Below, one piece after another: positions 768 through 30,554 of a DNA stretch of 30,787 nucleotides. The position numbers were made by a program, and so were the translations under genes. The DNA lies in IMG/VR virus record IMGVR_UViG_3300029993_000022, positions 1-30,787 of that record; one strand, given 5' to 3'. How positions within the stretch are numbered: the first letter of the stretch is position 1; each line of letters begins with the position of its first letter. This DNA comes from a virus. Below the pieces are notes generated by a model. The model did no database searches. It was not told the origin of the DNA and worked only from the letters and a program-made list of their open reading frames with translations.

Positions 768-795
768 TTGACATATTATATTTTCATGTTATAAT
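768..795 (+). promoter_or_regulatory. Consensus sigma70 promoter for the rightward block
   Basis: TTGACA (768-773) and TATAAT (790-795) are both perfect consensus hexamers with a 16-bp AT-rich spacer. The predicted start near 802 gives a leader of about 120 nt before the gene at 924. It is probably an early promoter read by host RNA polymerase and used for the amidoligase operon and genes beyond. The downstream repeats at 810-865 lie in the leader and may modulate it. Confidence 0.8.
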
Positions 796-923: not shown

Positions 924-1922
924 TTGGCAGCTAAAAATCCCCTGAGTCTACTTCCGGACGGTGTCGTGAAAGCGAACCTTCCCGAGTTCTTTAAGTCTTA
1001 CCCTAGTCTTTGTGCAGCTTCCCCGTCTTCTTGGTTTGCCTGGTCGATTGATGAAAAGAAGGTCATCGCACACAATAACCATGTATGTCATGCTAATCTG
1101 TGTTATGATGGACCTGGCTTTGATGAACTTATCACTGCTGTTCCATATTCTGACGAATTGTCTCTTGAGTATATTCGTATGCTCATTAGGGGCCCTTTCC
1201 GCTCTGTGTCTGATCTAATCCGATTGGAACGCCTAGGTAACAAGTATTTCCTTCGTTGTCTGAACCTTGACCGCTGGCCTGGTAACGTCCTGATGAACTT
1301 CTGCATCGCCACCAGAGTTACGATTGAACATCGGTTCATTCTAGAGCCTTGGGGCGAACGTTGTGAGAAAGGGTTTGATCCAGTTCTTGCGTTTCTTCTT
1401 ACATATTCGTATGGTTCATCTCGTGGCTATAATGGTTGTGCTTGTATCATTGGTACACATCGTTCCTTTGATCATTGGCGAACTGCACATTTCTGGCTCG
1501 ATCCGTCGTCAAACTGGTCTAACATTCTTCAAGGTAACATGGTTGGGCTTTCTAAGTCCTTCAAGATTGCCCCTGAAGACAGTCGGCCTACCAACTGTAT
1601 TTGGGGTGTCTGTAAAGACTACATTAAATTGAAGGCGATGACGGACGATGAGATCGCAGCTTTCTATACCATGCCGGTGCAGAAGCTCGAAGCTCCTGAA
1701 CCGATGCCGCTTTCGAAGACGGCCCCGAAGAAGAAACCTGTACCGTTTCTGTATCAATTTCCCGCAGGACAATTTAATCCTAATATTTGGCCACAACCAA
1801 TGCCTCAGTTTAATGCACAACTTCAACAACCAATTCACGACGAGGAGCCCATCCCCAATGAACTTGAAGAACAACCAGACATCGATGACTTCGATGACGA
1901 GCCGGATCCTGAATGGAACTAA
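924..1922 (+). CDS. Unidentified protein, 332 aa, with Pro-rich acidic tail
   Basis: No family is recognised. Residues 1-240 look globular and contain many Cys, Trp and aromatic residues. From about 245 the chain becomes low-complexity: proline and glutamine first, then an acidic end (DIDDFDDEPDPEWN). The TTG at 924 is the best start: an in-frame TAA lies at 882-884, no ATG or GTG follows it before 924, and GAGAAGG lies about 10 bases upstream. It is the first gene after the leader and overlaps the class I amidotransferase gene. It may therefore be a partner of the biosynthetic operon or an early host-interaction protein; both are guesses. Confidence 0.75.
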   Translation: MAAKNPLSLLPDGVVKANLPEFFKSYPSLCAASPSSWFAWSIDEKKVIAHNNHVCHANLCYDGPGFDELITAVPYSDELSLEYIRMLIRGPFRSVSDLIRLERLGNKYFLRCLNLDRWPGNVLMNFCIATRVTIEHRFILEPWGERCEKGFDPVLAFLLTYSYGSSRGYNGCACIIGTHRSFDHWRTAHFWLDPSSNWSNILQGNMVGLSKSFKIAPEDSRPTNCIWGVCKDYIKLKAMTDDEIAAFYTMPVQKLEAPEPMPLSKTAPKKKPVPFLYQFPAGQFNPNIWPQPMPQFNAQLQQPIHDEEPIPNELEEQPDIDDFDDEPDPEWN

Positions 1923-2580
1923 GTTTCACTCCTTTCTAGAGAATGAAGGAGCCGACCAAGGCATGGCCAACCTGTTCACCATGGCCGGCAGCCAAGAAAC
2001 GTCCGTTGAGAACGCCGACGTGATCATCTTCAATGGTGGTGCCGACTTGGGTACCATCCTGTACGGTGAACATCCAATCCAACGTGGCATCCCCGAGCAA
2101 CCCAGCCGCCGTGATCGGATGGAGATGGACCTGTACTACAGGTTCAAGGGCGGCTCCAAGCTGCTCCTAGGCATCTGCAAGGGTGCTCAAATGTTGAATG
2201 TTCTCAACGGTGGGACACTGTGGCAAGACGTTAACAATCACGGTCGTTCCCACAACATGACGGTGCTGGCGACGGGCCAGACAATCTACGTTACTTCAAC
2301 GCATCACCAGATGATGCGCCCCAACCTGAAAACCAGTAAGGTCTTGGCCACGGCGGACTGTGCCACCAAGAAGTATGCCGATCCGGACACCTGGAACGCC
2401 AACGGCGGCGTGTTCTATCCTGACGATCACAAAGACACCGAGATCGTCTGGTACCCGAGCACCGGCAGCCTGTGCATTCAGGGGCATCCGGAATATGTTC
2501 CCAACAGTGAATTCGCCACGTTCTGTCTGGACATGGTGGTTCATTATCTCGAAGAGGTGCGCGTTAAGTGTGTGGTCTAG
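1894..2580 (+). CDS. Class I glutamine amidotransferase-like protein (peptidase C26/PuuD type)
   Basis: This triad-type amidotransferase fold hydrolyses glutamine, or a gamma-glutamyl amide, through a cysteine. The nucleophile elbow reads LLGICKGAQML with Cys about 95 (numbering from 1894), and the catalytic His-x-Glu pair is in IQGHPEYV (His about 198, Glu about 200). Around residue 55 the acidic motif NGGADLG matches the PuuD/C26 branch. At about 228 residues the length fits a single-domain enzyme. The start is uncertain: ATG 1885, ATG 1894 and CTG 1909 are in frame inside the previous gene and none has a strong ribosome site. The gene overlaps the class II amidotransferase by 13 bases. Inferred role: to supply ammonia or to trim gamma-glutamyl groups for the ligases downstream. 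Confidence 0.85.
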   Translation: MTSRILNGTKFHSFLENEGADQGMANLFTMAGSQETSVENADVIIFNGGADLGTILYGEHPIQRGIPEQPSRRDRMEMDLYYRFKGGSKLLLGICKGAQMLNVLNGGTLWQDVNNHGRSHNMTVLATGQTIYVTSTHHQMMRPNLKTSKVLATADCATKKYADPDTWNANGGVFYPDDHKDTEIVWYPSTGSLCIQGHPEYVPNSEFATFCLDMVVHYLEEVRVKCVV

Positions 2581-3668
2581 TCGGCGTTTGTGGCGACTGC
2601 TCAGGCAGTTGGAAGGACGTTTTTCAAGAACTATTGCTCGTTGATGTCGTTCGTGGCTCACACAGCACTGGTGCAGGGTTCGTCGGACGTGGTACTGAAG
2701 AGTTTATGTTGGCCAAGCGTATTGGTCATCCGTTTAAGCTCTTCGGGGAAGAGGACTTCGAGAAGGCTATGGCTATAGCTCATCCTCAAAAGGTCCTCAT
2801 GGGTCATAACCGCTTTGCCACTCTCGGTGAGAAGACAGAAGCCAACGCCCACCCATTTATATTCCCGAATGTTATGGGGGCGCATAACGGTACTCTCGAT
2901 AAGTTCTGCATCAAGGATCTGACCGGTGCTGACCTATACGGGACCGACAGCCAAGCCATCTTCGCCACTATCGAAGAGAAGGGCATCGACGAAACACTCA
3001 AGTTGATGTCGGGCGCTTGGGCTCTGGTCTATTTTGATAAACGTGATCATACGTTGAACATGATCCGTAACGGCAAGCGGCCGCTGTGGTACACGTACAG
3101 CAGTGATCGTACAACGCTTGTCTGGGCGTCTGAACCGGAGATGCTTGAGTATGTCCTCAATAGACGTAAGAAGGCCATCCAGAAGGGCGACGACGGCAAA
3201 CCGCAGTACTTCCAGCCGCCGTCTGACATGTTGTATACTTTCACCATCCCGAACCTTCCGTCGAAGAAGATCGAGACACCGGTTCAACGGAAGATCGAAG
3301 GGAGGACTTGGACTGCCTCCTACTCAGGCCCTTTTCACCTTGGGAAGAAGAAGCGGCATGGTACACAGATTACCCATCTCACGAACGGGTTCCAGGCTTC
3401 TTTTTCTGATACGATTATGCCGTTCGACAAACGGCCGAAGTCGGATAAATTTCGCCAGCCGTACAAGGATAAGTACGGTCGGATCGTGATCAAGAAAGAG
3501 TTCGACGCCATGGTTGAGGAAGGTTGTATGTTCTGCAACGCTAACGGCCAACACTGGAATGATTTTGTCCAGATCGTCGGACCCTACATCGGTTATCATA
3601 CTCCTTATATGTGCGAAGAGTGTTACAATAGCGAAGAACAATTCGAAATAGCTCAGTACGCAATCTAG
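2568..3668 (+). CDS. Class II (Ntn) glutamine amidotransferase, 366 aa
   Basis: The GTG start gives MCGLVGVCG, so removal of Met would expose the N-terminal Cys nucleophile typical of GlmS/PurF-type glutaminases. Further family motifs follow: RGSHSTGAGF near 30, GHNRFATLG near 79, AHNGTL near 105 and TDSQAIF near 126. Residues after about 185 do not match a GlmS isomerase or PurF transferase domain. The C terminus instead has paired cysteines (CMFC near 322, CEEC near 351) that could hold zinc. It probably releases ammonia for a partner ligase. GAAGAGG lies about 10 bases before the GTG. It sits between the class I amidotransferase and the first amidoligase. Confidence 0.9.
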   Translation: MCGLVGVCGDCSGSWKDVFQELLLVDVVRGSHSTGAGFVGRGTEEFMLAKRIGHPFKLFGEEDFEKAMAIAHPQKVLMGHNRFATLGEKTEANAHPFIFPNVMGAHNGTLDKFCIKDLTGADLYGTDSQAIFATIEEKGIDETLKLMSGAWALVYFDKRDHTLNMIRNGKRPLWYTYSSDRTTLVWASEPEMLEYVLNRRKKAIQKGDDGKPQYFQPPSDMLYTFTIPNLPSKKIETPVQRKIEGRTWTASYSGPFHLGKKKRHGTQITHLTNGFQASFSDTIMPFDKRPKSDKFRQPYKDKYGRIVIKKEFDAMVEEGCMFCNANGQHWNDFVQIVGPYIGYHTPYMCEECYNSEEQFEIAQYAI

Positions 3669-3678
3669 GAGATTTGGC

Positions 3679-4524
3679 GTGCATAAACTACCAGTACTCG
3701 TGGGTGCAGACCCCGAGTTGTTTATGAGGAACCCGAACAACGGGGAATTCATTTCAGCCTCCGACAACGACTGCCTAGCCCGTATTCCGGGTACCAAGTG
3801 GAAACCTTTTCCGGTTCCCCATGGGGCTGTCCAGATCGACGGTACTGCGCTGGAGTTCAATATTGACCCGGCGACGTCCGTTGATGAGTTCGTCGGTTAC
3901 ATTCATTCCGTCCGCAGAACGCTGACGGAGATGGTTCCCGGCTACAATGTGGTGGCCGAGCCCGTCGCTCGTTTCGACGCTGAGTACTTTAGGTTCGAAG
4001 TGCCGACGAGCGCCCAAGAATTGGGTTGCAACCCCGACTACAACGGCTGGACGCAGGGCCAAAACCCCCGACCGGACCCCGCTGGTGAGCCTTTCCGAAC
4101 TGCCAGCGGTCACCTCCATATCGGTTGGACCGAAGGAGCCGACGTTGAAGATAAAGATCATTTCCTCTTCTGTTGTAAGGTGGCCCGACAACTTGATTAC
4201 TATCTCGGTATTTATTCGTTGCTTTGGGATAAGGACGGGACTCGGCGTAAGCTTTACGGTAAGGCTGGGGCATTTCGTCCCAAGTCATATGGACTGGAAT
4301 ACCGTGTACTATCGAATAAGTGGCTCGATAGTGAACCTTTGATGCGCTGGGTGTACAACACCATTCAGTGCGCCATGGCAGACGCTTTCAACGGCGACTT
4401 CGCTGAAGACTTTTATGGTGATATGGCTCAACATATCATTGACATGAACGACATTGATTGGCCTGAAGGTCTTGTCGACTTTGACCTTGGGTTGGAAGAT
4501 CTGCCGGAGGGAGTGGCAGCGTAG
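3679..4524 (+). CDS. phiEco32-type COOH-NH2 ligase (amidoligase type 2), 281 aa
   Basis: This is a glutamine-synthetase-fold enzyme expected to join a carboxylate to an amine using ATP. Family-type motifs are GADPELF (residues 9-15), VQIDGTALEFNIDPA (near 51-65), the metal-binding-type SGHLHIGW (near 142) and SYGLEYRVLSNKWL (near 207). The acidic and histidine positions match the nucleotide/Mg site pattern described for amidoligases. The GTG start follows TAGGAGA by 6 bases. It is flanked by amidotransferases and more ligases. Substrates are not predictable from sequence. Confidence 0.85.
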   Translation: MHKLPVLVGADPELFMRNPNNGEFISASDNDCLARIPGTKWKPFPVPHGAVQIDGTALEFNIDPATSVDEFVGYIHSVRRTLTEMVPGYNVVAEPVARFDAEYFRFEVPTSAQELGCNPDYNGWTQGQNPRPDPAGEPFRTASGHLHIGWTEGADVEDKDHFLFCCKVARQLDYYLGIYSLLWDKDGTRRKLYGKAGAFRPKSYGLEYRVLSNKWLDSEPLMRWVYNTIQCAMADAFNGDFAEDFYGDMAQHIIDMNDIDWPEGLVDFDLGLEDLPEGVAA

Positions 4525-4526
4525 AA

Positions 4527-5135
4527 ATGGCCGACTTCGATATGCTGGAAGAAGTGAATTCTAAGTTTACTGGCACCGTTGTTATGTATGATAAGAAAGC
4601 CGCCACGGTGAAGACAGTGGATAAGACTAATGATGGTTTCATTCTTGTGCTTGGCCTGCAAAGTTCCAGAGCATACAAATCTGTATCTCTCAATGATCCG
4701 GCGTTGGATTATAAGAACTACAAGATCGGTTACGTTAATGGTGGGAATTACGCCGGTTGGTGGTATCGTAAGCCACAGAAGCAGTGGCAACAGGGGCTTA
4801 AATCCAGCCAACTTGGTTATGTATTTTCGACACCTGGTGCTGGACCGCATGACAACTTCGGTTTCTCTGGGCCGTTTATCAAGATGCTGGAGAATATTTA
4901 TCCCAGCGTTGAAGAGGTGAAGAAAGTTCTGATGGACGGTGAATATAGTAGCCGTGCTTGGCACCGAGATTTTGCTCTTTCCTATGATCAAATTCATGAA
5001 GACTGCATTCTAGAATATCACGGTCGTAAGATTGGGATGTCGATCAGTCCTGACCTTGCTAAGTTCAAGATTTTGTCAGAAGCTCGGCATCTTCAAGAGG
5101 CGCTAGAGGAGGCGCGATACAATGTACACCCATAA
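4527..5135 (+). CDS. Uncharacterised protein of the amidoligase operon, 202 aa
   Basis: No domain is recognised. The N-terminal half looks beta-rich. The middle has an aromatic stretch (NYAGWWYRKPQKQWQQG, near 72-88) and the C-terminal quarter is probably helical and charged. It begins 2 bases after the preceding stop, with GGAGGGAG 13-20 bases upstream, and overlaps the next amidoligase by 14 bases, so it is translated with both. Its position between two amidoligases suggests a substrate, carrier or scaffold for the same pathway (inference only). Confidence 0.75.
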   Translation: MADFDMLEEVNSKFTGTVVMYDKKAATVKTVDKTNDGFILVLGLQSSRAYKSVSLNDPALDYKNYKIGYVNGGNYAGWWYRKPQKQWQQGLKSSQLGYVFSTPGAGPHDNFGFSGPFIKMLENIYPSVEEVKKVLMDGEYSSRAWHRDFALSYDQIHEDCILEYHGRKIGMSISPDLAKFKILSEARHLQEALEEARYNVHP

Positions 5136-6051
5136 GATGAACCTTATGGATAAGCTTGCTGTTCACATGCCCATTCAACAGAATGCAATGGATTATGCCG
5201 ACGCATACGGCATTGAGATGGAGATCGAAGGGGCTAATATCCTCAAACCCCCAATTGAAGTGATGCAATACTGGACCACTACAAAGGACGGTTCACTTCG
5301 CATCAAGAACCCTGGTGATGAGGCGATCGAATATCTATTCCGTATGCCATTCGGTCCGGCCCAGACTGAAAAGGCTATCGGCTATTTGTTTGCATATTTG
5401 AACAGCCCCGGTGTTACGGTGTACGAATCATATCGCACATCTATTCACGTTCATGTCAATTTTGCAATGGAAGAATACCGTACCATCTATAATTTCATCT
5501 GTCTCGCACTTCTGTTTGACGAACTTCTGGTGTCTCAGAACGGTGAACACCGGGTTGGCAACAACTTCTGTCTGCGCGCCAAGGACGCAATGGGTCAACT
5601 TCAAGAGTTGATGTCCAGTGTGAATAATGGCCACGGTTTCTTTGATATAAACCAGAACCATCGTTATAGTTCAATCAACTTTGCCAGCCTGATGAAGTAC
5701 GGAACCATCGAGTTCAGATCGCTGGAGTGCACCACGCATGAAGGCCGTCTGATGCACTGGATCGGTACTTTGCAGGCTCTGAAGAACAAGGCTAAGATCT
5801 TCAAGAACCCGACCGAGATCATCCAAGCATTTAGCGGTCTCGGACCTGAGGCTTTCCTTAAGGATGTTCTTGGTCCATATGCTGCCAAGTACGTTGCTGT
5901 TGAAGGTGCAACCGACATGCTCTTCAATGGTATGCGTATTGCCCAGGACTTCGCTTATTGTTCCGAATGGAACGAATTCACGGCTGAAGAACTCACCAAT
6001 GGTGCGAAGCCAAAGATCATTAACAAGAAAAAGGACCCTTACGGATGGTAA
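5122..6051 (+). CDS. Second amidoligase (Amidoligase_2-like), 309 aa
   Basis: The glutamine-synthetase-fold motifs differ from those of the type 2 ligase upstream: YGIEMEIEG (near 29-37, metal-binding glutamates), DGSLRI (near 56), TSIHVHVNF (near 106) and YGTIEFRSLE (near 194-203). Together these form the ATP-dependent amide-ligase site pattern of the Amidoligase_2 family. AGAGGAGG lies about 8 bases before the ATG. The C-terminal 40 residues are basic (KPKIINKKKDPYGW). It overlaps the ATP-grasp gene by 7 bases. Having two unlike amidoligases suggests at least two successive amide bonds. Confidence 0.8.
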   Translation: MYTHKMNLMDKLAVHMPIQQNAMDYADAYGIEMEIEGANILKPPIEVMQYWTTTKDGSLRIKNPGDEAIEYLFRMPFGPAQTEKAIGYLFAYLNSPGVTVYESYRTSIHVHVNFAMEEYRTIYNFICLALLFDELLVSQNGEHRVGNNFCLRAKDAMGQLQELMSSVNNGHGFFDINQNHRYSSINFASLMKYGTIEFRSLECTTHEGRLMHWIGTLQALKNKAKIFKNPTEIIQAFSGLGPEAFLKDVLGPYAAKYVAVEGATDMLFNGMRIAQDFAYCSEWNEFTAEELTNGAKPKIINKKKDPYGW

Positions 6052-6815
6052 TCTGGGTTTATACCGCTGGCCGTGCCAGTGAAGGTGCCTATGCGTTGGC
6101 ACACGAAGCTGGCTTCAAGCGGATGACGCTTGGCAAGGGTGTCAAGAGCGGCGACATCATCGTTAATTGGGGTGTGGGTGATGACACCAAGTTTCCTGAA
6201 CTAGAGAAGGACTTCACCCTTTTCAACTGCCCGGACGCTGTCGTACGCGCAGTCAATAAGCGCACGGCCTTCAAGATTTGGGCCGGACACAATGTTCAGA
6301 CAGTTCCGTGGACCGCAAACAAGGCGATCGCACAAGGCTGGCTCGACACTGGTTGTACGGTTATTGCCCGAAAGATCTTGACAGGTCATGAGGGAAATGG
6401 TATTGTTGTTATAGAGAAGGGTGAGAAGTTGATTGACGCCCCGCTTTATTCCAAGTATGTTTTCAAGGTGCGTGAGTTCCGGGTGCATGCCACACGGACG
6501 CAGGCGTTTGCATCTCACATGAAGATCAAGGACCCCAAGCAAGCTGGTCCACCCAAGACTTGGAAGGTTCGCAGCTATGCAAACGGATTCATTTTCCAAC
6601 GCAATAATGTCCCTGCATCCGCCGCCCGAGACGCTTTGGCCGTTCAAGCCGTCGAGGCCCTCGGTCTGGACTTCGGCGCTGTCGACATCATCGAAGACAA
6701 GTTCGGCAATTTTTACGTACTTGAGGTCAACACTGCTCCGGGTATTGAAGGGCAATCTACCGGAGCCTATGCCGCTGCCATCAAGGACCTTGTATATGCC
6801 ATCGCGCATGCTTAA
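6045..6815 (+). CDS. ATP-grasp ligase, 256 aa
   Basis: The ATP-grasp fold is indicated by the lysine- and glycine-rich loop VIARKILTGHEGNGIVV (near 107-123) and by the metal-binding C-terminal motif FYVLEVNTAPGIEG (near 226-239), which has the usual Glu and Asn. The short N-terminal part resembles a pre-ATP-grasp domain. Such enzymes make carboxyl phosphates and couple them to amines or thiols. AAGGA lies 9 bases before the ATG, which overlaps the amidoligase stop. It is the third ligase in the operon and fits the amidoligase/ATP-grasp combinations known from phiEco32-like phages. Confidence 0.87.
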   Translation: MVIWVYTAGRASEGAYALAHEAGFKRMTLGKGVKSGDIIVNWGVGDDTKFPELEKDFTLFNCPDAVVRAVNKRTAFKIWAGHNVQTVPWTANKAIAQGWLDTGCTVIARKILTGHEGNGIVVIEKGEKLIDAPLYSKYVFKVREFRVHATRTQAFASHMKIKDPKQAGPPKTWKVRSYANGFIFQRNNVPASAARDALAVQAVEALGLDFGAVDIIEDKFGNFYVLEVNTAPGIEGQSTGAYAAAIKDLVYAIAHA

Positions 6816-7230
6816 GATGCGGCACGACTTCCCTGCGTACATGGAGAACCGTCTGGTTCAGAAGTGGAACTATGCGGTGGACAAGCGCGTGTGGAAGGAT
6901 TGCATTATATTCAAGAAGTCTTATATCTCCGACAAGGAGTCTAAAGATCCGCTTGCTGGTGTTCGTTCAACTATTCGAGCGTCAGCGAACGACACTGTTG
7001 GACCAGTAAATCTTAACAGTCATCGTGATGAACTTTCGGCGTACCAGAAGAGGACACTGGAACGTCGGTGTGATAACATTGTGAATCATTTCCCCGACCC
7101 GTACAGTGCGGTAATACCCATCCGTATACGTCTTCACAATGTTGCTCAGGCGCTGATGCCCCTTGAGCGAGCCTTCATTGAAGAATTTATGGAAGAGAAT
7201 TTTCCACTTACGCTAGTTGAGGCCAAGTGA
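6808..7230 (+). CDS. Uncharacterised protein, 140 aa
   Basis: No family is recognised. The protein is mostly helical by appearance and charged, with many Arg, Lys and Asp, and ends in an acidic helix (ERAFIEEFMEENF). ATGs at 6808 and 6817 are both possible. The first overlaps the ATP-grasp stop by 8 bases and neither has a strong ribosome site, which suggests coupling to the upstream gene. It follows the ligase operon and may belong to it. Confidence 0.7.
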   Translation: MLKMRHDFPAYMENRLVQKWNYAVDKRVWKDCIIFKKSYISDKESKDPLAGVRSTIRASANDTVGPVNLNSHRDELSAYQKRTLERRCDNIVNHFPDPYSAVIPIRIRLHNVAQALMPLERAFIEEFMEENFPLTLVEAK

Positions 7231-13171: not shown

Positions 13172-13519
13172 ATGGGATTAAGTAATAGAGATCGACAAAG
13201 AGCATACAGGAAATTGCATCCTGAAATGCAATTATGGAGCAGTGCTAAATCTCGTGCTAAACGAGATGGTGTTGAGTTTGATATTACACGTTCAGATATT
13301 ATAATCCCGGATATATGCCCTGTATATGGTATACCTTTAATACCCTCTAAAAGTAAAGGTCCATCTCTTAATTCACCTACATTAGATCGTGTAAACCCTC
13401 TAAAGGGATATGTCAAAGACAACGTGAGAGTAATCTCACATAAAGCAAATGCAAGAAAACAGAACAATACCGTAGAGGATTTAGAACTCCTCTTGAGGTA
13501 TGCAAAAGGAGAACTATAA
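13172..13519 (+). CDS. Free-standing HNH homing-type endonuclease, copy 1, 115 aa
   Basis: The C-terminal half has the phage HNH/endonuclease VII-like pattern: ICPVYGIPL, then LDRVNPLKGYV, NVRVISHKAN and a closing helix. Such enzymes cut DNA at a specific site and spread their own gene. The gene is clearly more AT-rich than the flanking polymerase and SSB genes, a common sign of a mobile insertion. It has its own promoter but no ribosome site. Its last codons carry the AAAGGAG used by the SSB gene, so its insertion kept downstream expression. It is paralogous to the HNH gene at 13933-14343. Confidence 0.85.
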   Translation: MGLSNRDRQRAYRKLHPEMQLWSSAKSRAKRDGVEFDITRSDIIIPDICPVYGIPLIPSKSKGPSLNSPTLDRVNPLKGYVKDNVRVISHKANARKQNNTVEDLELLLRYAKGEL

Positions 13520-13520
13520 A

Positions 13521-13973
13521 TTGCTGATCCAAGGTAAATCGAAGTGGACGAAGGTTCTTGGTGAACCGGTTTGGGGCTATCAAAATGCCCATAAAGAGTG
13601 GAGCGTTGATGTCTATCCTAACGAGGATAGCCTTGAACGTTTGAAGGTAGAGGGACTTGAACCTAAATTGAAAGATAAGGGTGCAGGAGTTTACATCACC
13701 TTCAAGCGCCGTGAGAAGAAGCAAGACGACACCCCCAACCAACCCATCCGCGTGGTGGATCATCACGGTGAAGCGTGGAACCCGGCCGTTAAGATCGGCA
13801 ATGGTTCGACTGTCAATGTTAACTTTGCCGTCAATGAATACGGTAAGGGTCAGAAGTCTGCTAATATCCTGTCTATGCAGGTCTGGGATCTTGTGAAGTA
13901 CGACGGCGGTAATGAGTTCCCCACCCGCGAAGATGCTGAAGGTGAGAAGACCTGGGCCGAAGAGGCTGGTTAA
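13521..13973 (+). CDS. Probable single-stranded DNA-binding protein, 150 aa
   Basis: The sequence fits phage SSB proteins. A beta-rich core includes GVYITFKRREKK, QPIRVVDHHGEAWNP and IGNGSTVNVNF, then a conserved-looking SMQVWDLVKY near the end, and an acidic tail (EDAEGEKTWAEEAG) like those that recruit replication partners. It would coat single strands at the fork. ATG 13500 lies upstream in frame, but TTG 13521 follows AAAGGAG by 9 bases and comes right after the HNH stop, so TTG is preferred. The position after the polymerase fits the role. Confidence 0.7.
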   Translation: MLIQGKSKWTKVLGEPVWGYQNAHKEWSVDVYPNEDSLERLKVEGLEPKLKDKGAGVYITFKRREKKQDDTPNQPIRVVDHHGEAWNPAVKIGNGSTVNVNFAVNEYGKGQKSANILSMQVWDLVKYDGGNEFPTREDAEGEKTWAEEAG

Positions 13974-14343
13974 TTTCGTTAAAATAAACGGTAAGTGGCA
14001 GAATATTCGGGAATACACGCGTAAACGATACAGGAATAATTGGTCTCATAATCAAGTCGTAGCAAAACGTTCTCTAAGCAAGAGAAAGGATTTGCCATTT
14101 GACTTAGATGAGTCTGATTTAATTATTCCCGAATTCTGTCCAGTTCTTGGGATACCTATCTTTTTTGAAGACGGTAATGGCCCGAAATCTCATAGTCCAT
14201 CTATAGATCGTTTGATTCCTTCAAAAGGATACGTGAAGGGAAATATTCACGTAATTTCTCGGAAGGCTAATAGAATTAAGAATGATGCAACATTAGATGA
14301 ACTTGAGAAGGTTTATAAATGGCTAAAGAACAAACTCTCGTAA
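13933..14343 (+). CDS. Free-standing HNH homing-type endonuclease, copy 2, up to 136 aa
   Basis: This is a paralogue of the gene at 13172: FCPVLGIPI, SPSIDRLIPSKGYVKGN, VISRKANRIKNDAT and a final helix align with it without gaps over about 65 residues. It is AT-rich compared with both neighbours. The start is unclear: ATG 13933 or GTG 13942 would lie inside the SSB gene, and no start with a good ribosome site follows the SSB stop. Family-like sequence begins near 13990. The 3' end overlaps the next gene by 25 bases and carries its GAGAAGG ribosome site. Confidence 0.8.
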   Translation: MLKVRRPGPKRLVNFVKINGKWQNIREYTRKRYRNNWSHNQVVAKRSLSKRKDLPFDLDESDLIIPEFCPVLGIPIFFEDGNGPKSHSPSIDRLIPSKGYVKGNIHVISRKANRIKNDATLDELEKVYKWLKNKLS

Positions 14344-17506: not shown

Positions 17507-17671
17507 ATGGTTGGACTAAATAAGTTCACTGATAAGGAGCGTCGGAAAGCCCGGCGCTCTTTTCAGTTTGATATGTACAAGGAAGACCTACGTCAACCAA
17601 AGTACCGCGAAAGAACAATACCCAATAAGAAACGACAACAGGAGCGGGAAATAGACTACGATGATGAATGA
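17507..17671 (+). CDS. Small basic protein, 54 aa
   Basis: AAGG lies 7 bases before the ATG. The product is very rich in Arg and Lys (KERRKARRSFQFDMYKEDLR) and ends in acidic residues. It could bind nucleic acid, but no fold is recognised. Its last 11 bases overlap the ribonucleotide reductase start, suggesting coupled translation. Confidence 0.6.
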   Translation: MVGLNKFTDKERRKARRSFQFDMYKEDLRQPKYRERTIPNKKRQQEREIDYDDE

Positions 17672-19779
17672 CTACTCGAAATTTATTCATACATCTCGGT
17701 ATGCTCGATGGCTCGATTCAGAAGGTCGACGAGAAACCTGGGAAGAAACGGTTGATCGTTATATCGTATGGATGTGCGAACATATAAAAGCTCAACACAG
17801 TTTTGAGGATTATAAATTATTTGATGAGGCACGAAATGCTATAATTAACCTAGATCTTGTACCCTCTATGCGTTGCCTCATGACTGCTGGTCCTGCTCTT
17901 TCCAGGAATCATATAGCCGCGTATAATTGTGCTTATCTACCCATAGACAGTCTTAGAAGTTTTGATGAAGCTATGATGATCCTCATGTGCGGAACGGGAG
18001 TAGGATTTAGTGTTGAACAAAAGTACGTCGATTGTCTTCCCCAAGTGGGGCAAGCTATCGACGGAGAACAGCCTATCGTCGTTGTCCCAGATAGTAAAGA
18101 GGGATGGGCTAGTTCACTCCGGCGAATCATTGCCTACCTCTATCAAGGTTACACTCCAAGATGGGACACAAGTGGAGTACGACCTGCTGGAGCTAGACTT
18201 GTTACATTTGGAGGACGTGCTAGCGGACCTGGACCACTTGAGGAACTTTTTGAGTATGTTACGGAAGTTCTGGTTAAGGGACGAGGACGGAAACTTACTC
18301 CCCTTGAATCCCATGATATAATGTGTAAGATTGCTGAGGTCGTCGTCGTTGGTGGTGTCAGACGATCGGCAATGATCAGTCTTAGCGATCTATTCAATGA
18401 GTCGATGCGCTATGCAAAACATGGAGAATGGTGGACTAACAATGCCCAACGAGGACTATCTAACAACTCTGCGGTGTACATGGGAAGACCATCCGTCGGA
18501 GAATTCCTACGTGAGTGGCAATCTCTTTACGACAGTAAGAGTGGCGAGCGAGGAATATTTAATCGCCAAGCGAGTGACCGACAGGCTGCTCGAAATGGAC
18601 GAAGAGAAGCCTGTGACGATTTTGGAACAAATCCCTAAGCTTTGAGTGGGGATTCAAAACTTCCTCTGATTGACTTGGAAGCCGAAGGTACGGCGACAGG
18701 GCGCAAGCAAGAGAAATCTGTGCAGCGTGAGAGACTAAGCGAGGAAGACATTATGTACTGTGATCAGCCAGATTAAGTCTGGTAAAAATTGGTCACACAT
18801 AACTGTATGCGATAGTCCAGCGCACGTTGGGTTAATACCGACTAATCCCAATGTGTGAGGCAGTGAAATCATTCTTAGACCATATCAATTCTGCAATCTC
18901 ACCGAAGTTGTGGTACGACCTGGGGATGACCTGGGAGCCCTGGAACGAAAGGTGCGATTGGCCACCACTCTTGGGACCTTTCAATCCACTCTTACTGACC
19001 TTAAATATCTCCGACATATCTGGCGGAAGAATACTGAGGAGGAACGTCTACTCGGCGTGTCTCTCACAGGCATCCTCGACCACCCAACACTCGGGCGTGA
19101 CGGTGAGGGTTGCGAGTGGCTCCGGCATCTAAAGCAGGTAGCAATTGAGTGCAATAAAGAACTCGCTGCAAAGCTTGGGATACAGTCTTCTGTCGCTATC
19201 ACTTGTGTTAAACCTTCGGGTACTGTCAGCCAGTTGGTGGACAGTGCTAGTGGCATTCACCCTCGGCATAGCGCTTACTATATTCGAACTGTACGAGGGG
19301 ACATTAAAGATCCGCTCACACAATTCCTCCGAGATTGCGGAGTGCCAAACGAACCGGACCACTCAGCACCGACATCCACTGTCGTCTTCTCATTTCCTCA
19401 GGCTGCACCAACCGGGGCAATGGTTAGAGACGATCTATCCGCAATCGAACATCTCAAGATCTGGGCTAATGTCCAAGAACACTGGTGCGAACATAAACCG
19501 TCCATCACAGTCAACGTAAAAGAGGATGAATGGATTGAGACCGCGAATTGGGTCTGGGCTAACTTCGATATTCTTAGTGGCGTTGCTTTCCTTCCTTACA
19601 GTGAGCACACCTATCGCCAAGCCCCTTATCAGGAGTGTAGCGAGTCCGAGTACAATGAGTTCATGTCGAGGATGCCAAAGTCAATCGACTGGAGTCAACT
19701 CTCCAAGTATGAAATTGATGACAATACCACTGGTTCACAAGAGTATGCCTGCGCAAGCGGGTTTTGTGAAATCGTCTGA
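17661..19779 (+). CDS. nrdJ: Class II B12-dependent ribonucleoside-triphosphate reductase, join(17661..18636,18860..19779)
   Basis: The enzyme makes dNTPs from NTPs using an adenosylcobalamin radical. The unspliced sequence looks broken: exon 1 reaches a stop at 18638. Joining 18636 to 18860 restores one 631-residue frame with the text FGTNPCSEIILRPYQFCNL. Cysteines match the monomeric Lactobacillus leichmannii reductase. Cys90 (YNCAYL) is the first redox cysteine. Cys326, the thiyl-radical residue, and Cys337 are 11 apart, as are C408 and C419. Cys623 and Cys628 are 5 apart at the C terminus, as are C731 and C736. Conserved VVRPGDDL and TCVKPSGTVSQL are present. Start ATG 17661 (or 17664) has only a distant GGAG. 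Confidence 0.93.
18637..18859 (+). ncRNA. Compact ORF-less group I intron in the reductase gene
   Basis: Exon 1 ends in U (AATCCCT, 18630-18636) and the intron ends in G (18859), as for group I introns. The 5' exon AATCCCT pairs with the internal guide GGGGATT (18648-18654) in a 7-bp P1 whose last pair is the required U-G. AGAGACTA (18730-18737) and ATAGTCC (18812-18818) match the conserved R and S elements and form P7. A P9-like hairpin pairs 18824-18831 with 18847-18854. The length of 223 nt is near the minimum and leaves no room for a homing endonuclease. Splicing would rebuild the TGC codon of the catalytic cysteine. Confidence 0.93.
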
Positions 19780-20642: not shown

Positions 20643-20805
20643 TTGGTTTCTTTTCCTTAGACCGAAGATAACTGAGCACTTGACTACTGGCCCCAGCTAT
20701 CGCTGCTATCGTTGATAGTATAATACAAATATCACTCACATGTAACCCCGTAAGTGCAAAAGTTACTACTGTAGCTGGGTACGTTAGAAAGCCTGAGTGG
20801 CTCAT
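20629..20805 (-). CDS. Holin candidate with two hydrophobic helices, 58 aa
   Basis: The ATG at 20805 overlaps the stop of the 1765-residue gene in an ATGA junction. The product has two hydrophobic stretches, about residues 6-21 (FLTYPATVVTFALTGL) and 24-46 (SDICIILSTIAAIAGASSQV), followed by a lysine-rich tail (YLRSKEKKPN). This is the layout of small class II holins such as T7 gp17.5, which open the inner membrane to release the endolysin. No endolysin gene is adjacent in this window, so the call rests on topology and position after the virion genes. Confidence 0.6.
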   Translation of the reverse strand: MSHSGFLTYPATVVTFALTGLHVSDICIILSTIAAIAGASSQVLSYLRSKEKKPNATS

Positions 20806-23800
20806 TTGATCTGCTCCCTTATAGCCTGAGCTGCTGCTTTTTTACTGTCTGTCTCGATTGAACGAACTTCTTCAACTCGTTGGTCGTCTGTCATCTTTGC
20901 CCAGCTTCCATCGTCTAGATCTTGCTGAACATAGTACACAAGGGACTTACCAGCCAGTCGTTGATACTCTTCAATCTGTGCAGGCTTAAGAGCAATCTTA
21001 CCTTGGCTACTGTCGTCCGGGTCTGCTGAAATAGTATGTGTTACAGGTGTAACGATAGCGCTAGTTGTCATAGAAGATAGACGATCAAGCTCACGTTCCG
21101 CGGGGTCTTGCGTCTCAGTCGTTCCATTGCCAGATAAGCCAGGAACGATTGTATGGACACCAGTCAAGCTGGTACCAGCCGCAAGTGGGTCTCCATAGAC
21201 ACTATACTTGATCGGTAGATTACTCCTGAATGGAGTTTCATTCAGTATCTCATTAGCCGCCGTTCCACTGATAGAGCCGGGGGCTGAGGTGTCCCGCTGA
21301 ACGGGGTCTGCAAGCTGACTGGCTTGACGGACACCGCCGGGCACCCATGTCGCAGCTTCGTGACCTATGAAGCTGTTGACCGTGCTCTGACCTTCTTGGC
21401 CATGAGCCCTAGCCGCATCGACTGCAGGCTGAATATCAGAAATCCAAGACATACCAGCAAGGTTCGACAACACGGACCCCAAGCCCATCTTGAATGCATT
21501 GCCCCACCCTTGTGCAGACATACCAGCGTCGTAAGCCTGTCGAGCGGACGCAACCAGTTGAGCCGTCTTGTTATGCACGTCAAAAGGATTGACAGACATA
21601 CCAAGTTGACCGCCAGTGTTGTAGCCACCATTCTCATGTACAGCATCGGGACGCCAACCAGATGCAATCTTCTCTTTGTACTTGTTTACATTGTCTGGTC
21701 CAGCACCTGTTAGCGGGGTGTTCTTCTGGCCAGCCAGCATCCAGTACATACCCATCAGAACTGAACCGTACATGATGCGGGTCATCGCTATGTCAGATTT
21801 GGCACCACCAGCACGAAGATCCGATCTGGGGTCCATCAATTGATACAAACCAAGCGGTGAGCGATTAATTACACGCTCAAGTAAAACGTTAGATTCAATA
21901 CGAATAAACGGAGCAAGATTGGAAATGGAGAAGTTCAACCCACGCTCGAAGGGGTTCATATTTGGCTTATATATACGACCTTTGTTGATCAATGTATTCA
22001 ACGGGTTGTCATTCAACAGCAAGGTTCTATTAGCTTCCTTGAATGCTTCACGCAGCATGCTGGGGTGCGGATTCTGAGCGATCTGACGACCAAGAGTCAT
22101 GATGTCAGACGTCGTGCCACCTGGCATCTGTAGACGTGCTTCACGCGTAGCAATAGACAGTAGATGGGCATTGGTGGCCACAGAGCGGAACACAGTATCT
22201 TGTGCGGAGATAAGGTCAGTCGGTTTATTCAATAGACCAACAGCCTTACCGGCAACAGACGTAGTATTACCGAGTCTCGGGTTTGAAATAGCACCGAACT
22301 GATTGGCGAACTGGGTTGGTGTACGTTGTCCGTTAGACACGAAGGAAGACTCACCCGTCCGTAGTGCATGAGCAGCCGCACGGTACACTTCCATGTCTGT
22401 TACAGCAGCCATGATACCATGGATGTGATTGAACAACTCAGCCACTTCTACACCAGGTTCCACAACCTTACCGGTCATGGCTTGATACATCTGTCGAGCT
22501 TTAGACACGGGAATGCTGAGTGCCTTCTCAAGCACTTCGCGGGTGATACCCGTCGCCATGTCTACTGGGGCCTTGACGTGAGTGCTCAGAGCAGACAGCA
22601 TTGCGTTCATATGGAACGTGGTGAGGTACTGCTCCCAGTACGGCTTGACGACATTCTGCATCAGTGCATTAGCACCCTTGGGGTTGCTGTTCGACTGAAG
22701 TGCTTGCTTCAACTGTCGGGCAAACTTGAGAGCTTCTGGGTTCGTCGGGTCGGCCAATGCAGCCAGACCGGAACCTTCTTCACGCAGACGGTCCATGATC
22801 TCAGACAGATGTCCGTTGGTCAGTTCCTTAAACACCTTAGCGGTGGCCAGAGCACGACCAAGTTCGTTACCTTCACCCTTGAACATCGACACAAGTGCAT
22901 TGCGCTGGGCAATTGCTTCGGCCAACTTTACGTGATCTTCCGGCTTCCAGTTCGGGGTGTCCAGCCGGTCAAGAATACCACCAACCTTAATAGCTGCGTA
23001 TCGTGCAGCATAACCGATTTTAGATAGGCGTGTAGCAAGTTCACCGACATCACGCCCCTTCAAATCATTCGGATTGATACCGTTCTCAATGGCAGCCGTA
23101 CGCACCTCGTCGCGGGACATCACATTGGGCGTATAGTTAGCCTCAACGTGAGCAGCCACGCCTTCAAGGTCGTCCATGTCATAGTTGGTCTTGGTAGCAC
23201 GAGACCTAGCTAATTGGGCGCGAGTAATGAACTTATTGCTCATACTTAGGCGAGGCGGAAGGTCTCCATTTTCATCAATGTTCTTTTCAAGATGATCAAT
23301 GAGATGACGTGGCATATTCTCCAGAATACCACCCGGAGTCTTAGCCTCGTGTAATGCATCCATTTGTTGTTGCTTGACAATTTCGTCAGTTTTCAACCTA
23401 GTTAATAGTTGCGTAACAGCATTATCCGGTCCACGCGTAGTATCACTCATTGCACGAATAAGCCTACGCCCAGCAGGTTCCTGCACTATTGGGTGGTTCT
23501 GCTCCGTGAAATCCTGCAGAATGGCATGCGTGTCAGTCCCGAGTAGGTGTTTATTGTTTTCAACAAATCTACTCAGACGATCAAATTGATTAACTGCAAC
23601 ATTCCAATCACTGAGATGGCTGCGCATACCGGCTTGTCGCCACTCTTCTTGAGATTCAGGCGGCAGTTTTGTGAATGCATCATTAAGCGCCGAAGAACGC
23701 ATGAACTTATTGCCACCATTCTCTTGCTGGGTAGCACGTACACGAGCCATCTCATTGACGTTAGCTCGGTATTCAGGGTCCTGCCAATAACGCGGATCAG

Positions 23801-26099
23801 CCTTCAGACGATCAATCTCATCCAAGTGTTCGGGATCAGTGATCTCACGACCGAGTTGATCGGTGTGCATAAACTTGGGCAGATAACGTTCTTGAGCACC
23901 CTCACGCATACGTATACGTTGTTCAACAGCCCGAGCTTCTTGTTCAGAAGGATGGTCAGCATAAGAGTATAGAGGATCATGACCTGTACCACCAGACTTC
24001 ATCGCACGAACGAAGTCAGGATACTTTTCAATATCCTGGATGGCATGTTGAGTTTCATGCAGAACTACACCGAGTGGATCCATATTATGATAGAATGAAC
24101 CTCGATTGAGATACATCTTACCACCAGTTCCTGTTTCCGGATTGTGAGGATCATAACCCCCAGCAAACTTAGAATTAGGGTTGTACTCATGGACAACAGG
24201 TAGACTGTGAAGTTCTGGATATTGTTCAAAGAGTTCAGGGTGATGAAGAGTAGATCCAAGTGTATCACCCGGAGATTCATAGAGACGAGCTTCTCTATCA
24301 CTTATCTCATTTCGAGTGATACCGTCTTTCGCCGTATATACTGAAGGATGTTCTTTGTCAAATCCGGTAGCCATTTGACCAGTGAACATGAACTTGTTGT
24401 TCGGGTCTTGCGTTGCACCACGGAACCCGTTCTCTTGGACGGACTTACCCTTAACAACAGCATCGTGAGCCATCGACAAGACATGCTGAACCTCAGCGTC
24501 GTTCATGTCCAACTTCATCCCCATGCGGCGACCGAAGCGACGAACAACACTGTTAAGGGCTAGTTGCCAAGATGGTTTGATCTGGCCATTCTGCGACTGC
24601 TCGGCGAGGACTTCCTCAGCAGACAGCGCACGACTTTCACCCGGGTTTGCAGCCTGACGTGCTTCAACGAGCTTGCCGAACTGTCCGACATTGCTGTCAG
24701 CCATAGACACAAGCGTCTGATTGAGTTTATTGCCGAACAGTTGACTTAGACCGTAGTGCCCGAGACCTTCGTGGAACAGTACGGCAGACGCTACGTCCGG
24801 GTCAGTAATCCGACCACTGAACATATGCACTTGACCATCAGACCCAAAGAGACCGAGAGCGTTCCCCTGAGGGTCAGCCTTGAGCACGGAGTCACGAACC
24901 GCAGGATCAGCAATATCCTCTGGTCCATGAACAACATTCACGTCAGGCGCATTGGCCCAACCCTTAGTGATGTTGTCTACGTGGTCTTGAACGGCCTGAC
25001 GCTGGGTGTCACGGTAAGTTTGTTCTGCATGCTGGTTATATTCATCTTGGTAGTTGAAATCTGGCATCCGGCTAGGATCAGCACCAGCCACACCATTAGT
25101 AGCCGCAGGCGGATTGTCACGATGTTCAACCCAAGTATTGACATCCGTCCAAGACGGTTGAGGGCCTTGACGTCCTTGAAAGAATTGCTTGATGTCATCG
25201 ACGTTCCCCGTTTGCAGAAGTTGTTGATACTGCATGTGATCGGCTGCATTCATAGCAACATGATCACCAGTCATTGGCTGAATGGTACCACCAGTTGGAT
25301 TGGCACCAGGGGTTGTGTCCATACCACGATTAGCGTAAAGATTCTTTACGAATGGAGTAGCCTCAACTGCTCCATGTAGCGCAGCACCGAATAGACCAGA
25401 AGTTAATGTGGCTTGCAATGATTGATTGACATCGTAGTTCTTCTTCTGACCTTCAGCAATATCCATGAGCTGAGCCGCTGCATCAGACACACCACCAACT
25501 GCGGCGTTCCCAAGGCCAGCCGTAGCCACACGGGTAGCAATATTGCCGCCCACACCCATACCAGGAAGCATGAAGTATTGGGGGTTTGCGACAATGCCCG
25601 CTCCTGTATTAACAGCTTGTTGACTGAAACGTTCTAGTGCATCAAATGGGTTACCGTCGGTATAAGAGCCGACAGTATTATTCTGCATCTGTTGCTGGGC
25701 AGACTGGCGAGCCTGAGTAATCGCACCATTATAGCGTGCATGCAAACTGGCATTAGACTCACCTTGTTGACGACCAACCCCAAGAGCTTCCATAGACGCA
25801 CGCACCGGTTCCATGAAGAGACCGGTATTCACAGCCTGCTGGTAATTGGCTTGAAGGGATTGGATCGGCTTACTGTACGTCGCACCAATCAGGGTTGACT
25901 CGATAGCGTTGGGATCATGATTTGGGTGATTGGGATCGGTAAGGTCTTGGAACGTCTGACCAATCATGTCAAACGGGTTCGTCGCCCCAGCCGGCCTTTG
26001 AGGGGCAGCAGCGGGGGTGTGACTATCGAACTGATCGAAGGGGTTACCAGTAGATGCAGGTGGCTGAACTGCATCAAACTGATCGAAGGGATTTGCCAT
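20802..26099 (-). CDS. Giant internal/ejected virion protein with zincin-like motifs, 1765 aa
   Basis: This is the longest gene in the window and probably encodes an internal virion protein delivered into the host with the DNA, like the large ejection proteins of podoviruses. The N terminus repeats NPFDQFD/NPFDMIG three times (residues 3-46). A HEGLGHYG site is at 443-450 and a true HExxH motif, HETQHAIQ, at 681-688. Both resemble metalloprotease-like domains found in large polyvalent phage and mobile-element proteins (LPD23-like for the second). The remaining two thirds are mainly helical. Cleavage of cell wall or host protein is possible but unproven. It starts in a TAATG overlap with the upstream gene. 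Confidence 0.8.
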   Translation of the reverse strand: MANPFDQFDAVQPPASTGNPFDQFDSHTPAAAPQRPAGATNPFDMIGQTFQDLTDPNHPNHDPNAIESTLIGATYSKPIQSLQANYQQAVNTGLFMEPVRASMEALGVGRQQGESNASLHARYNGAITQARQSAQQQMQNNTVGSYTDGNPFDALERFSQQAVNTGAGIVANPQYFMLPGMGVGGNIATRVATAGLGNAAVGGVSDAAAQLMDIAEGQKKNYDVNQSLQATLTSGLFGAALHGAVEATPFVKNLYANRGMDTTPGANPTGGTIQPMTGDHVAMNAADHMQYQQLLQTGNVDDIKQFFQGRQGPQPSWTDVNTWVEHRDNPPAATNGVAGADPSRMPDFNYQDEYNQHAEQTYRDTQRQAVQDHVDNITKGWANAPDVNVVHGPEDIADPAVRDSVLKADPQGNALGLFGSDGQVHMFSGRITDPDVASAVLFHEGLGHYGLSQLFGNKLNQTLVSMADSNVGQFGKLVEARQAANPGESRALSAEEVLAEQSQNGQIKPSWQLALNSVVRRFGRRMGMKLDMNDAEVQHVLSMAHDAVVKGKSVQENGFRGATQDPNNKFMFTGQMATGFDKEHPSVYTAKDGITRNEISDREARLYESPGDTLGSTLHHPELFEQYPELHSLPVVHEYNPNSKFAGGYDPHNPETGTGGKMYLNRGSFYHNMDPLGVVLHETQHAIQDIEKYPDFVRAMKSGGTGHDPLYSYADHPSEQEARAVEQRIRMREGAQERYLPKFMHTDQLGREITDPEHLDEIDRLKADPRYWQDPEYRANVNEMARVRATQQENGGNKFMRSSALNDAFTKLPPESQEEWRQAGMRSHLSDWNVAVNQFDRLSRFVENNKHLLGTDTHAILQDFTEQNHPIVQEPAGRRLIRAMSDTTRGPDNAVTQLLTRLKTDEIVKQQQMDALHEAKTPGGILENMPRHLIDHLEKNIDENGDLPPRLSMSNKFITRAQLARSRATKTNYDMDDLEGVAAHVEANYTPNVMSRDEVRTAAIENGINPNDLKGRDVGELATRLSKIGYAARYAAIKVGGILDRLDTPNWKPEDHVKLAEAIAQRNALVSMFKGEGNELGRALATAKVFKELTNGHLSEIMDRLREEGSGLAALADPTNPEALKFARQLKQALQSNSNPKGANALMQNVVKPYWEQYLTTFHMNAMLSALSTHVKAPVDMATGITREVLEKALSIPVSKARQMYQAMTGKVVEPGVEVAELFNHIHGIMAAVTDMEVYRAAAHALRTGESSFVSNGQRTPTQFANQFGAISNPRLGNTTSVAGKAVGLLNKPTDLISAQDTVFRSVATNAHLLSIATREARLQMPGGTTSDIMTLGRQIAQNPHPSMLREAFKEANRTLLLNDNPLNTLINKGRIYKPNMNPFERGLNFSISNLAPFIRIESNVLLERVINRSPLGLYQLMDPRSDLRAGGAKSDIAMTRIMYGSVLMGMYWMLAGQKNTPLTGAGPDNVNKYKEKIASGWRPDAVHENGGYNTGGQLGMSVNPFDVHNKTAQLVASARQAYDAGMSAQGWGNAFKMGLGSVLSNLAGMSWISDIQPAVDAARAHGQEGQSTVNSFIGHEAATWVPGGVRQASQLADPVQRDTSAPGSISGTAANEILNETPFRSNLPIKYSVYGDPLAAGTSLTGVHTIVPGLSGNGTTETQDPAERELDRLSSMTTSAIVTPVTHTISADPDDSSQGKIALKPAQIEEYQRLAGKSLVYYVQQDLDDGSWAKMTDDQRVEEVRSIETDSKKAAAQAIREQIK

Positions 26100-28970: not shown

Positions 28971-30554
28971 TTATCCTACTCTAAACCAAGTTGTGATAGA
29001 AGCCACGTATTTCCATCTAATGTAACCATTAGCGAGAAGAGTGTTAGGACCTCCGCCTAGGATTGTCTGCCCAGCGTTGGCATTGACCGTTAGTGTGGTG
29101 ATCGTCTGTGAACTTATGATAGAAACCTCTTGCCCATCATCAGGAGCCGCTGGCATTGTAAGGGTACCAGCAGCAAGAGTCCCAGCGGGGTTCATAATGT
29201 AGAAATTGATTGCATTCCCGATCACATGACTAAAGCCGGTGGCTGGGACAATGTACGAGTATGGGGATGCCAGAATACCAACGATACCACCTAGAGCGTC
29301 CACAACAGGCTGACCAGCAATGTTGCCAGCATACAGAACACCAGCATCAATAGTAAAGTCAGGTTGCAGCGATCCACCATGGTATGTCCTAAAGATGATC
29401 TCGCCCTCTTCAGAGCCAGCTGTAGGAACCCGTGCGGTAAGATCGATCTGTGCCCAAGTGTTCGCTGGAAGTGATCCAGTCGAGTTTGGTCCTTGTCCAA
29501 GTATAGAACAGCATGTGTAGTTAGTACCTAGAGTGGCTTCAGCGCGTTGGCCATAATATTGACAAGCTTGTCCAGTTGCCACAACAGACCAAGAGTGGGC
29601 TGATAATTCTCCAACCGTTCCGTTGGTACCATTGATCGTAAGGAATAGGTTAGTGCCGTCTGTGTAGAAGCCAGCAGGATTAGTATTGGCTCCTATGTTG
29701 ATTGCTGGAGCAGCCTTGGTACCGTCTGGCGTAGTTATTGGACCAGTCATTATGCCACCAGTCAGTGGCAGGAAACCCATCAGTGGTTGATAGCCATAAC
29801 TGTCGTCAGCATCAGCACCATCAAGACCGAAGCCAATAGGACCCTGAGGACCCGTTGCACCCTGAGCACCAGTTAGACCCTGAGGCCCAGGAGGTCCACG
29901 ATCCCCCACGTCGCCATCACTACCATCAAAGCCCATAAAGCCAGCGGGACCCTGAGGGCCAGTAGCCCCAGACGTACCAGTAAGACCTCTAGGACCAGGA
30001 ATAGACGCTCCTTCAGGACCCTCATCACCATCCAACCCCGCCATTCCCATGATCCCCTGGAGACCTTTGGGACCAGTTGCACCAGTAGAACCCTGAGGAC
30101 CAGTGGGGCCTTGCGGACCGGGAGGCCCAGGAGGACCCATCTCTCCGTCGTCCCCGTCGAGTGGCATCATACCACCACCACCTGAGCTTGAGGTGGGCGA
30201 GTTTACGAACGTTAGACCAGTGGCACCGGGATTAACGGCTACGAACTTGTTAGCCGCACCCGCGTATGAACTTGGAGTATCGGCCAATTGCAGGAAGGTA
30301 TCTACACCCACTTGATGCCAGGTACCACCATTAGCCACATACAGAATGTATGGGGTAGTTGCAGTATTCACATACTCAGAACCATCAGCCGGGTCTGTAG
30401 ACGTAGGCACACCCGCTCCAAACGTGATGGAGTTAATCAACGCATTGTTATTGCGCTGAATAGCCCATCTACGCTGGAACTCTGGCGTGGGTCTGCCTGT
30501 CTTATCGACAATGGCAATCCGCCAGTCTAGGGGGCCGAGGTCTTCAACAGTCAT
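28971..30554 (-). CDS. Collagen-like tail or head fibre protein, 527 aa
   Basis: Residues about 1-130 form an N-terminal region likely to attach to the virion ([17 protein letters not shown] near 25-41). From about 130 to 255 there are Gly-X-Y collagen repeats ([16 protein letters not shown] and more), interrupted by acidic [14 protein letters not shown] and [11 protein letters not shown] stretches. The C-terminal half is beta-rich and ends in a [16 protein letters not shown]-type domain seen in phage fibres. It probably forms a trimer used for adsorption. The ATG overlaps the upstream stop (TAATG). Confidence 0.87.

Follow-up and report, generated by a model that had tools for sequence, protein, structure and literature searches.

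Why would a virus encode, side by side, five enzymes that form or break amide bonds? The question is raised by IMG/VR virus record IMGVR_UViG_3300029993_000022, whose 30,787 bases (the whole stretch analysed, hereafter the window) hold eight consecutive plus-strand open reading frames (ORFs) within 924-7230 that overlap or almost touch their neighbours; IMG/VR also contains a contig of 49.7 kb (L008/L020) whose COOH-NH2 ligase is identical. Judged by its content, this operon belongs to the known phage amidoligase clusters attributed to Iyer et al. 2009; PMC10580990 cites from that work the suggestion that such clusters modify the cell wall or exclude superinfection, and PMC11318856 presents this suggestion as though established. 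Our literature searches turned up neither an experiment on the cluster nor a paper that shows a function, and a preliminary description of the window, which had called the products of related clusters unknown, agrees with the literature found, where PMC10580990 gives only the cell-wall and superinfection suggestion. Our preferred reading, a tentative one that we would not quite call probable, is that the operon is an early enzymatic module that would make amide (peptide-type) bonds at the expense of ATP, with glutamine and glutamate as its currency and with gamma-glutamyl groups serving to protect, extend and deprotect; what it produces would most likely be a small conjugate or peptide-like molecule that forms in the course of infection. 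To the known clusters we add two core families (X and Y), the rule that a cluster carries GAT1, a gamma-glutamyl cyclotransferase (GGCT) or both, and an observation on GAT2 start codons. The features of the operon are as follows.

768-795, plus strand: predicted sigma-70 promoter (TTGACA, 16 nt, TATAAT) whose -10 element is extended by a preceding TG
924-1922, plus strand: X, a core protein with a TTG start, Cys55, Arg131, a conserved His and an acidic C-terminal tail
1894-2580, plus strand: GAT1, class I glutamine amidotransferase (GATase) fold of the Peptidase_C26 type, a putative gamma-glutamyl hydrolase
2568-3668, plus strand: GAT2, class II (Ntn) GATase with a GTG start, Cys as residue 2 (GTG TGT) and a C-terminal CxxC...CxxC
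3679-4524, plus strand: CNL, phiEco32-type COOH-NH2 ligase with a GTG start and conserved residues
4527-5135, plus strand: Y, a partner encoded between the two glutamine synthetase (GS)-like ligases, matching phrog_11055 at 7.6e-22
5122-6051, plus strand: AML2, Amidoligase_2-type GS-fold ligase
6045-6815, plus strand: GRASP, RimK-like ATP-grasp ligase
6808-7230, plus strand: Z, a clade-specific accessory gene of near relatives

Five enzymes in one predicted transcription unit

The five enzymes named in the preliminary description were recovered where it had placed them, as overlapping or closely spaced plus-strand ORFs that each score above the curated threshold of a family, and homology searches placed all five in both Pfam and PHROGs. 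As every Pfam cut-off was passed and agreement with PHROGs was far stronger, the family assignments are not due to chance. Specifically, GAT2 matched GATase_6 (PF13522) at 66.1 bits (cut-off 27; 4e-18) and phrog_4736 at 9e-63, CNL matched COOH-NH2_lig (PF14395) at 34.8 bits (cut-off 25; 1.3e-8) and phrog_3815 at 5.5e-73, and AML2 matched Amidoligase_2 (PF12224) at 44 bits (cut-off 22; 3.2e-11) and phrog_7469 at 1.2e-55. The score of GRASP against RimK (PF08443) was marginal (22.2 bits, cut-off 21) and its match to phrog_2599 strong (3e-62). GAT1 scored 61.4 bits against Peptidase_C26 (PF07722; cut-off 20.5; 1.4e-16) and 8e-32 against phrog_7218, but reached only 21.9 bits with the generic GATase family PF00117, slightly below the 22.8 cut-off. 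The earlier claim of two amidotransferases thus stands for the folds, class I and class II, but not for the family of the class I protein, which we predict to be of the gamma-glutamyl-hydrolase type and not a plain amidotransferase. The catalytic residues of the enzymes are intact and conserved in comparisons with 98-159 homologues: the Cys-His-Glu triad and S-x-HHQ motif of GAT1 are kept in 97-99% of them, the Glu/His/Arg residues of AML2 and the metal/ATP residues D214, E227 and N229 of GRASP in 99%, and GAT2 retains the glutamine-binding motifs (R, HNG, D) with H80, R82, H106-N107-G108 and D127 conserved.

The promoter at 768-795 agrees with the consensus at 12 of 12 positions and was the top sigma-70-like site in the 9.5 kb scanned. 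Since comparable promoters (11-12/12) lie 130-145 nt 5' of X in L021, L024 and L031, all of them close relatives, the operon probably starts there, and 924-7230 most likely forms a single transcription unit that host RNA polymerase would probably transcribe early in infection. Promoters of at least 11/12 precede X in six of 86 X-bearing loci, as against 1.9% of random positions. The operon had originally been delimited as 1894-7230; we therefore extend it to X at 924, with 768-795 as its most likely start.

The cluster is conserved among diverse phages

Homologues of CNL were found by tblastn in 315 phage records, and four IMG/VR scans gave about 200 loci, 158 of which remained after removal of duplicates and were analysed with iterated hidden Markov models (HMMs). 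All 158 carry CNL, 153 GAT2, 152 AML2, 147 an ATP-grasp ligase and 136 Y; X was recognised in at least 94, GAT1 in 93, GGCT in 73 and Z in 16. When we considered the 105 loci flanked by 5 kb or more upstream and by 6 kb or more downstream (the window was included despite its shorter upstream flank), a second GS-fold amidoligase, a class II GATase and an ATP-grasp ligase lay beside CNL in 103-104. The commonest gene orders were X-GAT1-GAT2-CNL-Y-AML2-GRASP and CNL-Y-AML2-GAT2-GRASP-GGCT.

The first of these, the order of the window, is that of the Zobellviridae clusters (Pseudomonas phages PA11, K4 and O4, Citrobacter phage CVT22, Salinivibrio phage CW02 and KZY1-k141_1938105), whose CNL proteins are 45-54% identical to that of the window. 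K4 and KZY1-k141_1938105 have this order, and in CVT22, Pecta and CW02 small ORFs are interspersed; CW02 differs further by an additional GGCT. Synteny and best matches together suggest a Zobellviridae affinity of the window phage. The second order is that of phiEco32 (Kuravirus) and LUZ24 (Bruynoghevirus), which share homologues of CNL, Y, AML2, GAT2 and the ATP-grasp ligase with the window, in keeping with the link to phiEco32-like clusters drawn beforehand, but have GGCT in place of GAT1 and strongly diverged X-like proteins. Clusters also exist in crAss-like phages, where the genes are rearranged, and in cyanophages, and the hosts are as diverse as Pseudomonas, E. coli, Vibrio, Cellulophaga and Leptolyngbya. 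A scan of 84,980 genomes for a cellular version returned seven relatives, all on contigs of metagenome-assembled genomes (MAGs) of at most 50 kb, and no informative cellular operon; these seven contigs may well be phage sequence.

As a separate observation, genes for phosphoribosyl pyrophosphate (PRPP) synthetase and nicotinate phosphoribosyltransferase, a pair known from NAD+ salvage by phages, adjoin the cluster in phages Slicky01 and Lbo-JY46, and a PRPP synthetase gene also occurs in LAh_6 (coordinates of these PRPP/NAD+ salvage genes: L017 1-2269; L014 1733-5942; L018 14006-14687).

GAT1 and GGCT seem to replace each other

Across the cluster phages, GAT1 and GGCT seem interchangeable. 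Every cluster examined carries at least one type of gamma-glutamyl-cleaving enzyme, apart from an orphan CNL (L201): the other 104 of the 105 well-flanked loci have GAT1, GGCT or both in the same genome, with GAT1 only in 51, GGCT only in 34 (in four of these elsewhere in the genome) and both in 19. Whole-record searches, in which some records are fragments, found no GGCT in 46 GAT1-only genomes; in 25 genomes with GGCT only, GAT1 was not detected, while the positive controls were. Likewise, no GGCT was found in the near-identical 49.7 kb contig and its close kin, which have the C26-type GAT1 instead. Conversely, GGCT occupies the GAT1 slot itself in L017 (Slicky01) and L019 (275E43-1), in the order X-GGCT-GAT2-CNL-Y-AML2-GRASP; in 275E43-1 a homing endonuclease is inserted after GGCT. 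In a Pagel test using the CNL tree, dependent evolution of the two genes was favoured (p 0.013; 0.002 without the orphan, and 0.011 when four long branches were also removed). On the basis of this complementary pattern and the Pagel test, we read GAT1 as a gamma-glutamyl-releasing enzyme: there is moderate evidence that it would do the job of GGCT rather than supply ammonia.

Several points weigh against this reading. An independent-pairs test of GAT1 and GGCT, with 3-6 informative pairs, was not significant, and a simulation of the number of loci with neither gene was uninformative. Moreover, the pattern falls mostly on one deep split, between Zobellviridae-like and LUZ24/phiEco32-like phages, 19 genomes retain both genes, and the tree is a CNL gene tree, not a phage tree, with an arbitrary midpoint root and loci that are partly fragments. 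GAT1, with its GATase I fold, might also serve a ligase as a glutaminase, and GGCT could merely recycle gamma-glutamyl by-products. Finally, PDB searches with CNL and AML2 gave no credible relative.

In a different account, both GATases are plain ammonia donors, one for each GS-fold ligase, so that carboxamides would be formed on a metabolite or protein, the RimK-like enzyme would add glutamates, and GGCT would be unrelated housekeeping (glutathione or peptide recycling). Two glutaminase-fold proteins do adjoin two GS-fold ligases, and the N-terminal Cys of GAT2 is intact. We nevertheless consider such an amidation module unlikely: the 25 GGCT-bearing cluster phages that have both ligases but no GAT1 anywhere in their records argue that GAT1 is not an obligate donor for either ligase, GAT1 is closer to Peptidase_C26 than to the generic GATases, and in two phages GGCT lies within the cluster, in the very slot of GAT1.

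A proposed gamma-glutamyl protection scheme

Gamma-glutamyl ligases paired with gamma-glutamyl-cleaving enzymes, as in PuuA/PuuD, EgtA/EgtC and BtrJ/BtrG, attach glutamate for a time only, as a handle or to protect a group. By this logic we propose glutamate as a removable handle for the phage module, in which, as in those pairs, an ATP-dependent gamma-glutamyl ligase would be matched by a cleaving enzyme, be it a C26 hydrolase, a GGCT or a hydrolase resembling class II GATases; by contrast, the three known pairs have no counterpart to the combination of two GS-fold ligases, an ATP-grasp enzyme, X and Y. First, one of the two GS-fold ligases, CNL or AML2, which Y would hold together, would link the gamma-carboxyl of glutamate to an acceptor amine, giving a gamma-glutamyl amide. 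Second, the other GS-fold ligase, the RimK-like ATP-grasp enzyme or both would activate a carboxylate and add the next amino acid or amine. Third, GAT2 would hydrolyse glutamine and feed ammonia to a ligase, or would act as an EgtC-like gamma-glutamyl hydrolase. Fourth, GAT1, with the Peptidase_C26 fold of PuuD, would remove the gamma-glutamyl group, a role that GGCT would take over in other phages. X would be a dedicated, thiol-bearing core partner, acting as catalyst, carrier or acceptor. The order of the steps, the substrates, the product and the benefit to the phage are what we infer from sequence comparison.

GRASP has the fold and the metal/ATP residues of the RimK/MptN ATP-grasp glutamate ligases, but its scores are far below their equivalog cut-offs: it reached 46 bits (3e-12) against NF040720 (MptN), with a cut-off of 350 bits, and failed the RimK S6-glutamate ligase equivalog (PRK10446; 22.7 versus 331 bits), which makes it a member of the superfamily only. 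The substrate of RimK or MptN can therefore not be transferred to GRASP.

X and Y are core partners

Three partner genes had been listed without a family, 924-1922 with a "perhaps". The first two, X and Y, proved to be conserved members of the module, but Z is accessory: it has no match in Pfam, PHROG, NCBIfam or phage records and was not found in the named Zobellviridae isolates. Because tblastn with X and Z against the phage collection gave nothing, their families were built by iteration on the loci.

Y adjoins CNL in 136 of 136 instances and AML2 in 135 of 136, mostly with overlapping genes, and this adjacency suggests that CNL, Y and AML2 may form a complex. It evolves faster than CNL (34-52% versus 58-75% identity to close kin), and no credible family was found when its homologues were scanned against Pfam. 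Structure prediction, proposed at the outset for the partners, was applied to Y and X. The AlphaFold2 (AF2) model of Y (pLDDT 94) is rich in beta-strands and barrel-like; its PDB matches are local and Tudor/SH3-like, e.g. to the PcrA/UvrD C-terminal domain (5dma; prob 0.99, TMt 0.71), with E >0.07 for the Tudor matches and no full-length match.

In X, Cys55 and Arg131 are invariant and the His is frequent among 63 aligned homologues, and divergence again exceeds that of CNL (29-43% versus 58-75% identity to close kin). None of the X homologues scanned had a credible Pfam match; different members match three unnamed PHROGs. Its AF2 model (pLDDT 79.6; 201 residues at or above 90, loops and tail of low confidence) had no match in the PDB at E<=0.001, and its only matches in BFVD were proteins that lack a name or come from related phages, including CW02, CVT22, GAP52 and LAh_6. 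The proteins encoded upstream in phiEco32- and Proteus/LAh_6-like clusters are distant X members (hhalign probability 80-96%). The acidic tail of the window's X (1800-1922) has up to about 30 D/E-rich residues and resembles the X C-termini of L027 (L009) and L031. We had entertained this tail as a RimK substrate and dropped it as a core feature, given its absence from most X proteins.

In Aeromonas phage LAh_6 (L018 2583-6987), four X-sized ORFs with a similar N-terminal C-F/Y/W motif precede the ligases; relatives of one of them match the X profile, and among the BFVD matches of the X model is a LAh_6 protein of 266 residues. X-like proteins thus seem to multiply in some clusters.

These properties bear on the idea that the module modifies a protein, in that its ligases would, in the manner of RimK, build glutamate or peptide chains on a protein of the host or the phage. 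The target would be X or a host protein, for instance RNA polymerase, and Y (Tudor/SH3-like, cf. UvrD/PcrA and RapA) would be the targeting adaptor. A RimK-like ATP-grasp enzyme is present, some of the Tudor-like domains that Y locally resembles bind RNA polymerase, and X is fast-evolving, carries an invariant Cys and, in the window's clade, an acidic tail, and has several relatives in some clusters. The local nature of the Y matches, the lack of the tail in most X proteins and the recognition of X in 67 of the 105 well-flanked clusters, and not all, nonetheless make this explanation doubtful.

Envelope, DNA and virion as alternative targets

Altered peptidoglycan or lipopolysaccharide (LPS) peptides that block superinfection would accord with the suggestion published for phiEco32 (Iyer et al. 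2009, as cited in PMC10580990), and peptide ligases generally serve wall synthesis. No membrane, lipid-carrier or glycosyl-transfer partner was recognised among the recurrent cluster genes, however, the cluster phages infect very different hosts, and the literature searches returned no experiment in its favour; we regard an envelope function as improbable. Decoration of DNA or the virion is in our view very improbable. It might be favoured by the location of the operon in the early region, with genes for nucleotides and replication (ThyX, primase-helicase, polymerase) directly downstream. Among the cluster genes, however, we recognised no base-modifying enzyme such as a hydroxymethylase, a DpdA-type transglycosylase or a base kinase, and the virion genes form a module of their own on the opposite strand.

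Start codons of GAT2

Of the 116 GAT2 genes that could be read, 14 (L002, which is phage K4; L019, which is 275E43-1; L024, L030, L031, L047, L073, L079, L082, L085, L086, L093, L095 and L115) have no ATG, GTG or TTG between the in-frame stop and the codon of the catalytic Cys. ATT (11 genes) or ATC (3 genes) directly precedes the Cys instead, mostly with a GGAG-type ribosome site close upstream, so that translation seems to initiate at AUU or AUC. The annotation of K4 gp24 begins too late and omits the catalytic Cys, and caution is warranted with GAT2 annotations, part of which lack this residue.

Other features of the window

Outside the operon, the ribonucleotide reductase gene is split at about 18636-18850: ORF 17661-18638 ends in ...FGTNP, and the protein resumes with ...SEIILRPYQFCNL about 0.2 kb further on, past stops in all frames. 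The gap resembles a small intron or insertion, and Rfam detected no known intron. Two similar ORFs (13172-13519 and 13912-14343) look by eye like small HNH-type endonucleases (CPVxGIP...DRxxPxKGYVKxNxxVIS motif). On the minus strand, 20802-26099, on the virion side, encodes a 1765-residue protein that matches hardly any family, and 28971-30554 a collagen-like tail-fibre protein.

Implications

The module occurs in hundreds of phages, including therapy-relevant Pseudomonas phages, at a cost of about 6 kb. The comparative results offer chemistry that can be tested, namely gamma-glutamyl amides and the swap of C26 hydrolase and GGCT, and X and Y are core partners that belong in any reconstitution. 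In its most far-reaching form, which is bold and on balance rather unlikely, the protection scheme would amount to a widespread phage-specific pathway that makes a new peptide-like molecule on or with the novel-fold Cys protein X, with C26 hydrolase and GGCT as interchangeable deprotection modules, and that would alter host physiology or defeat host defence.

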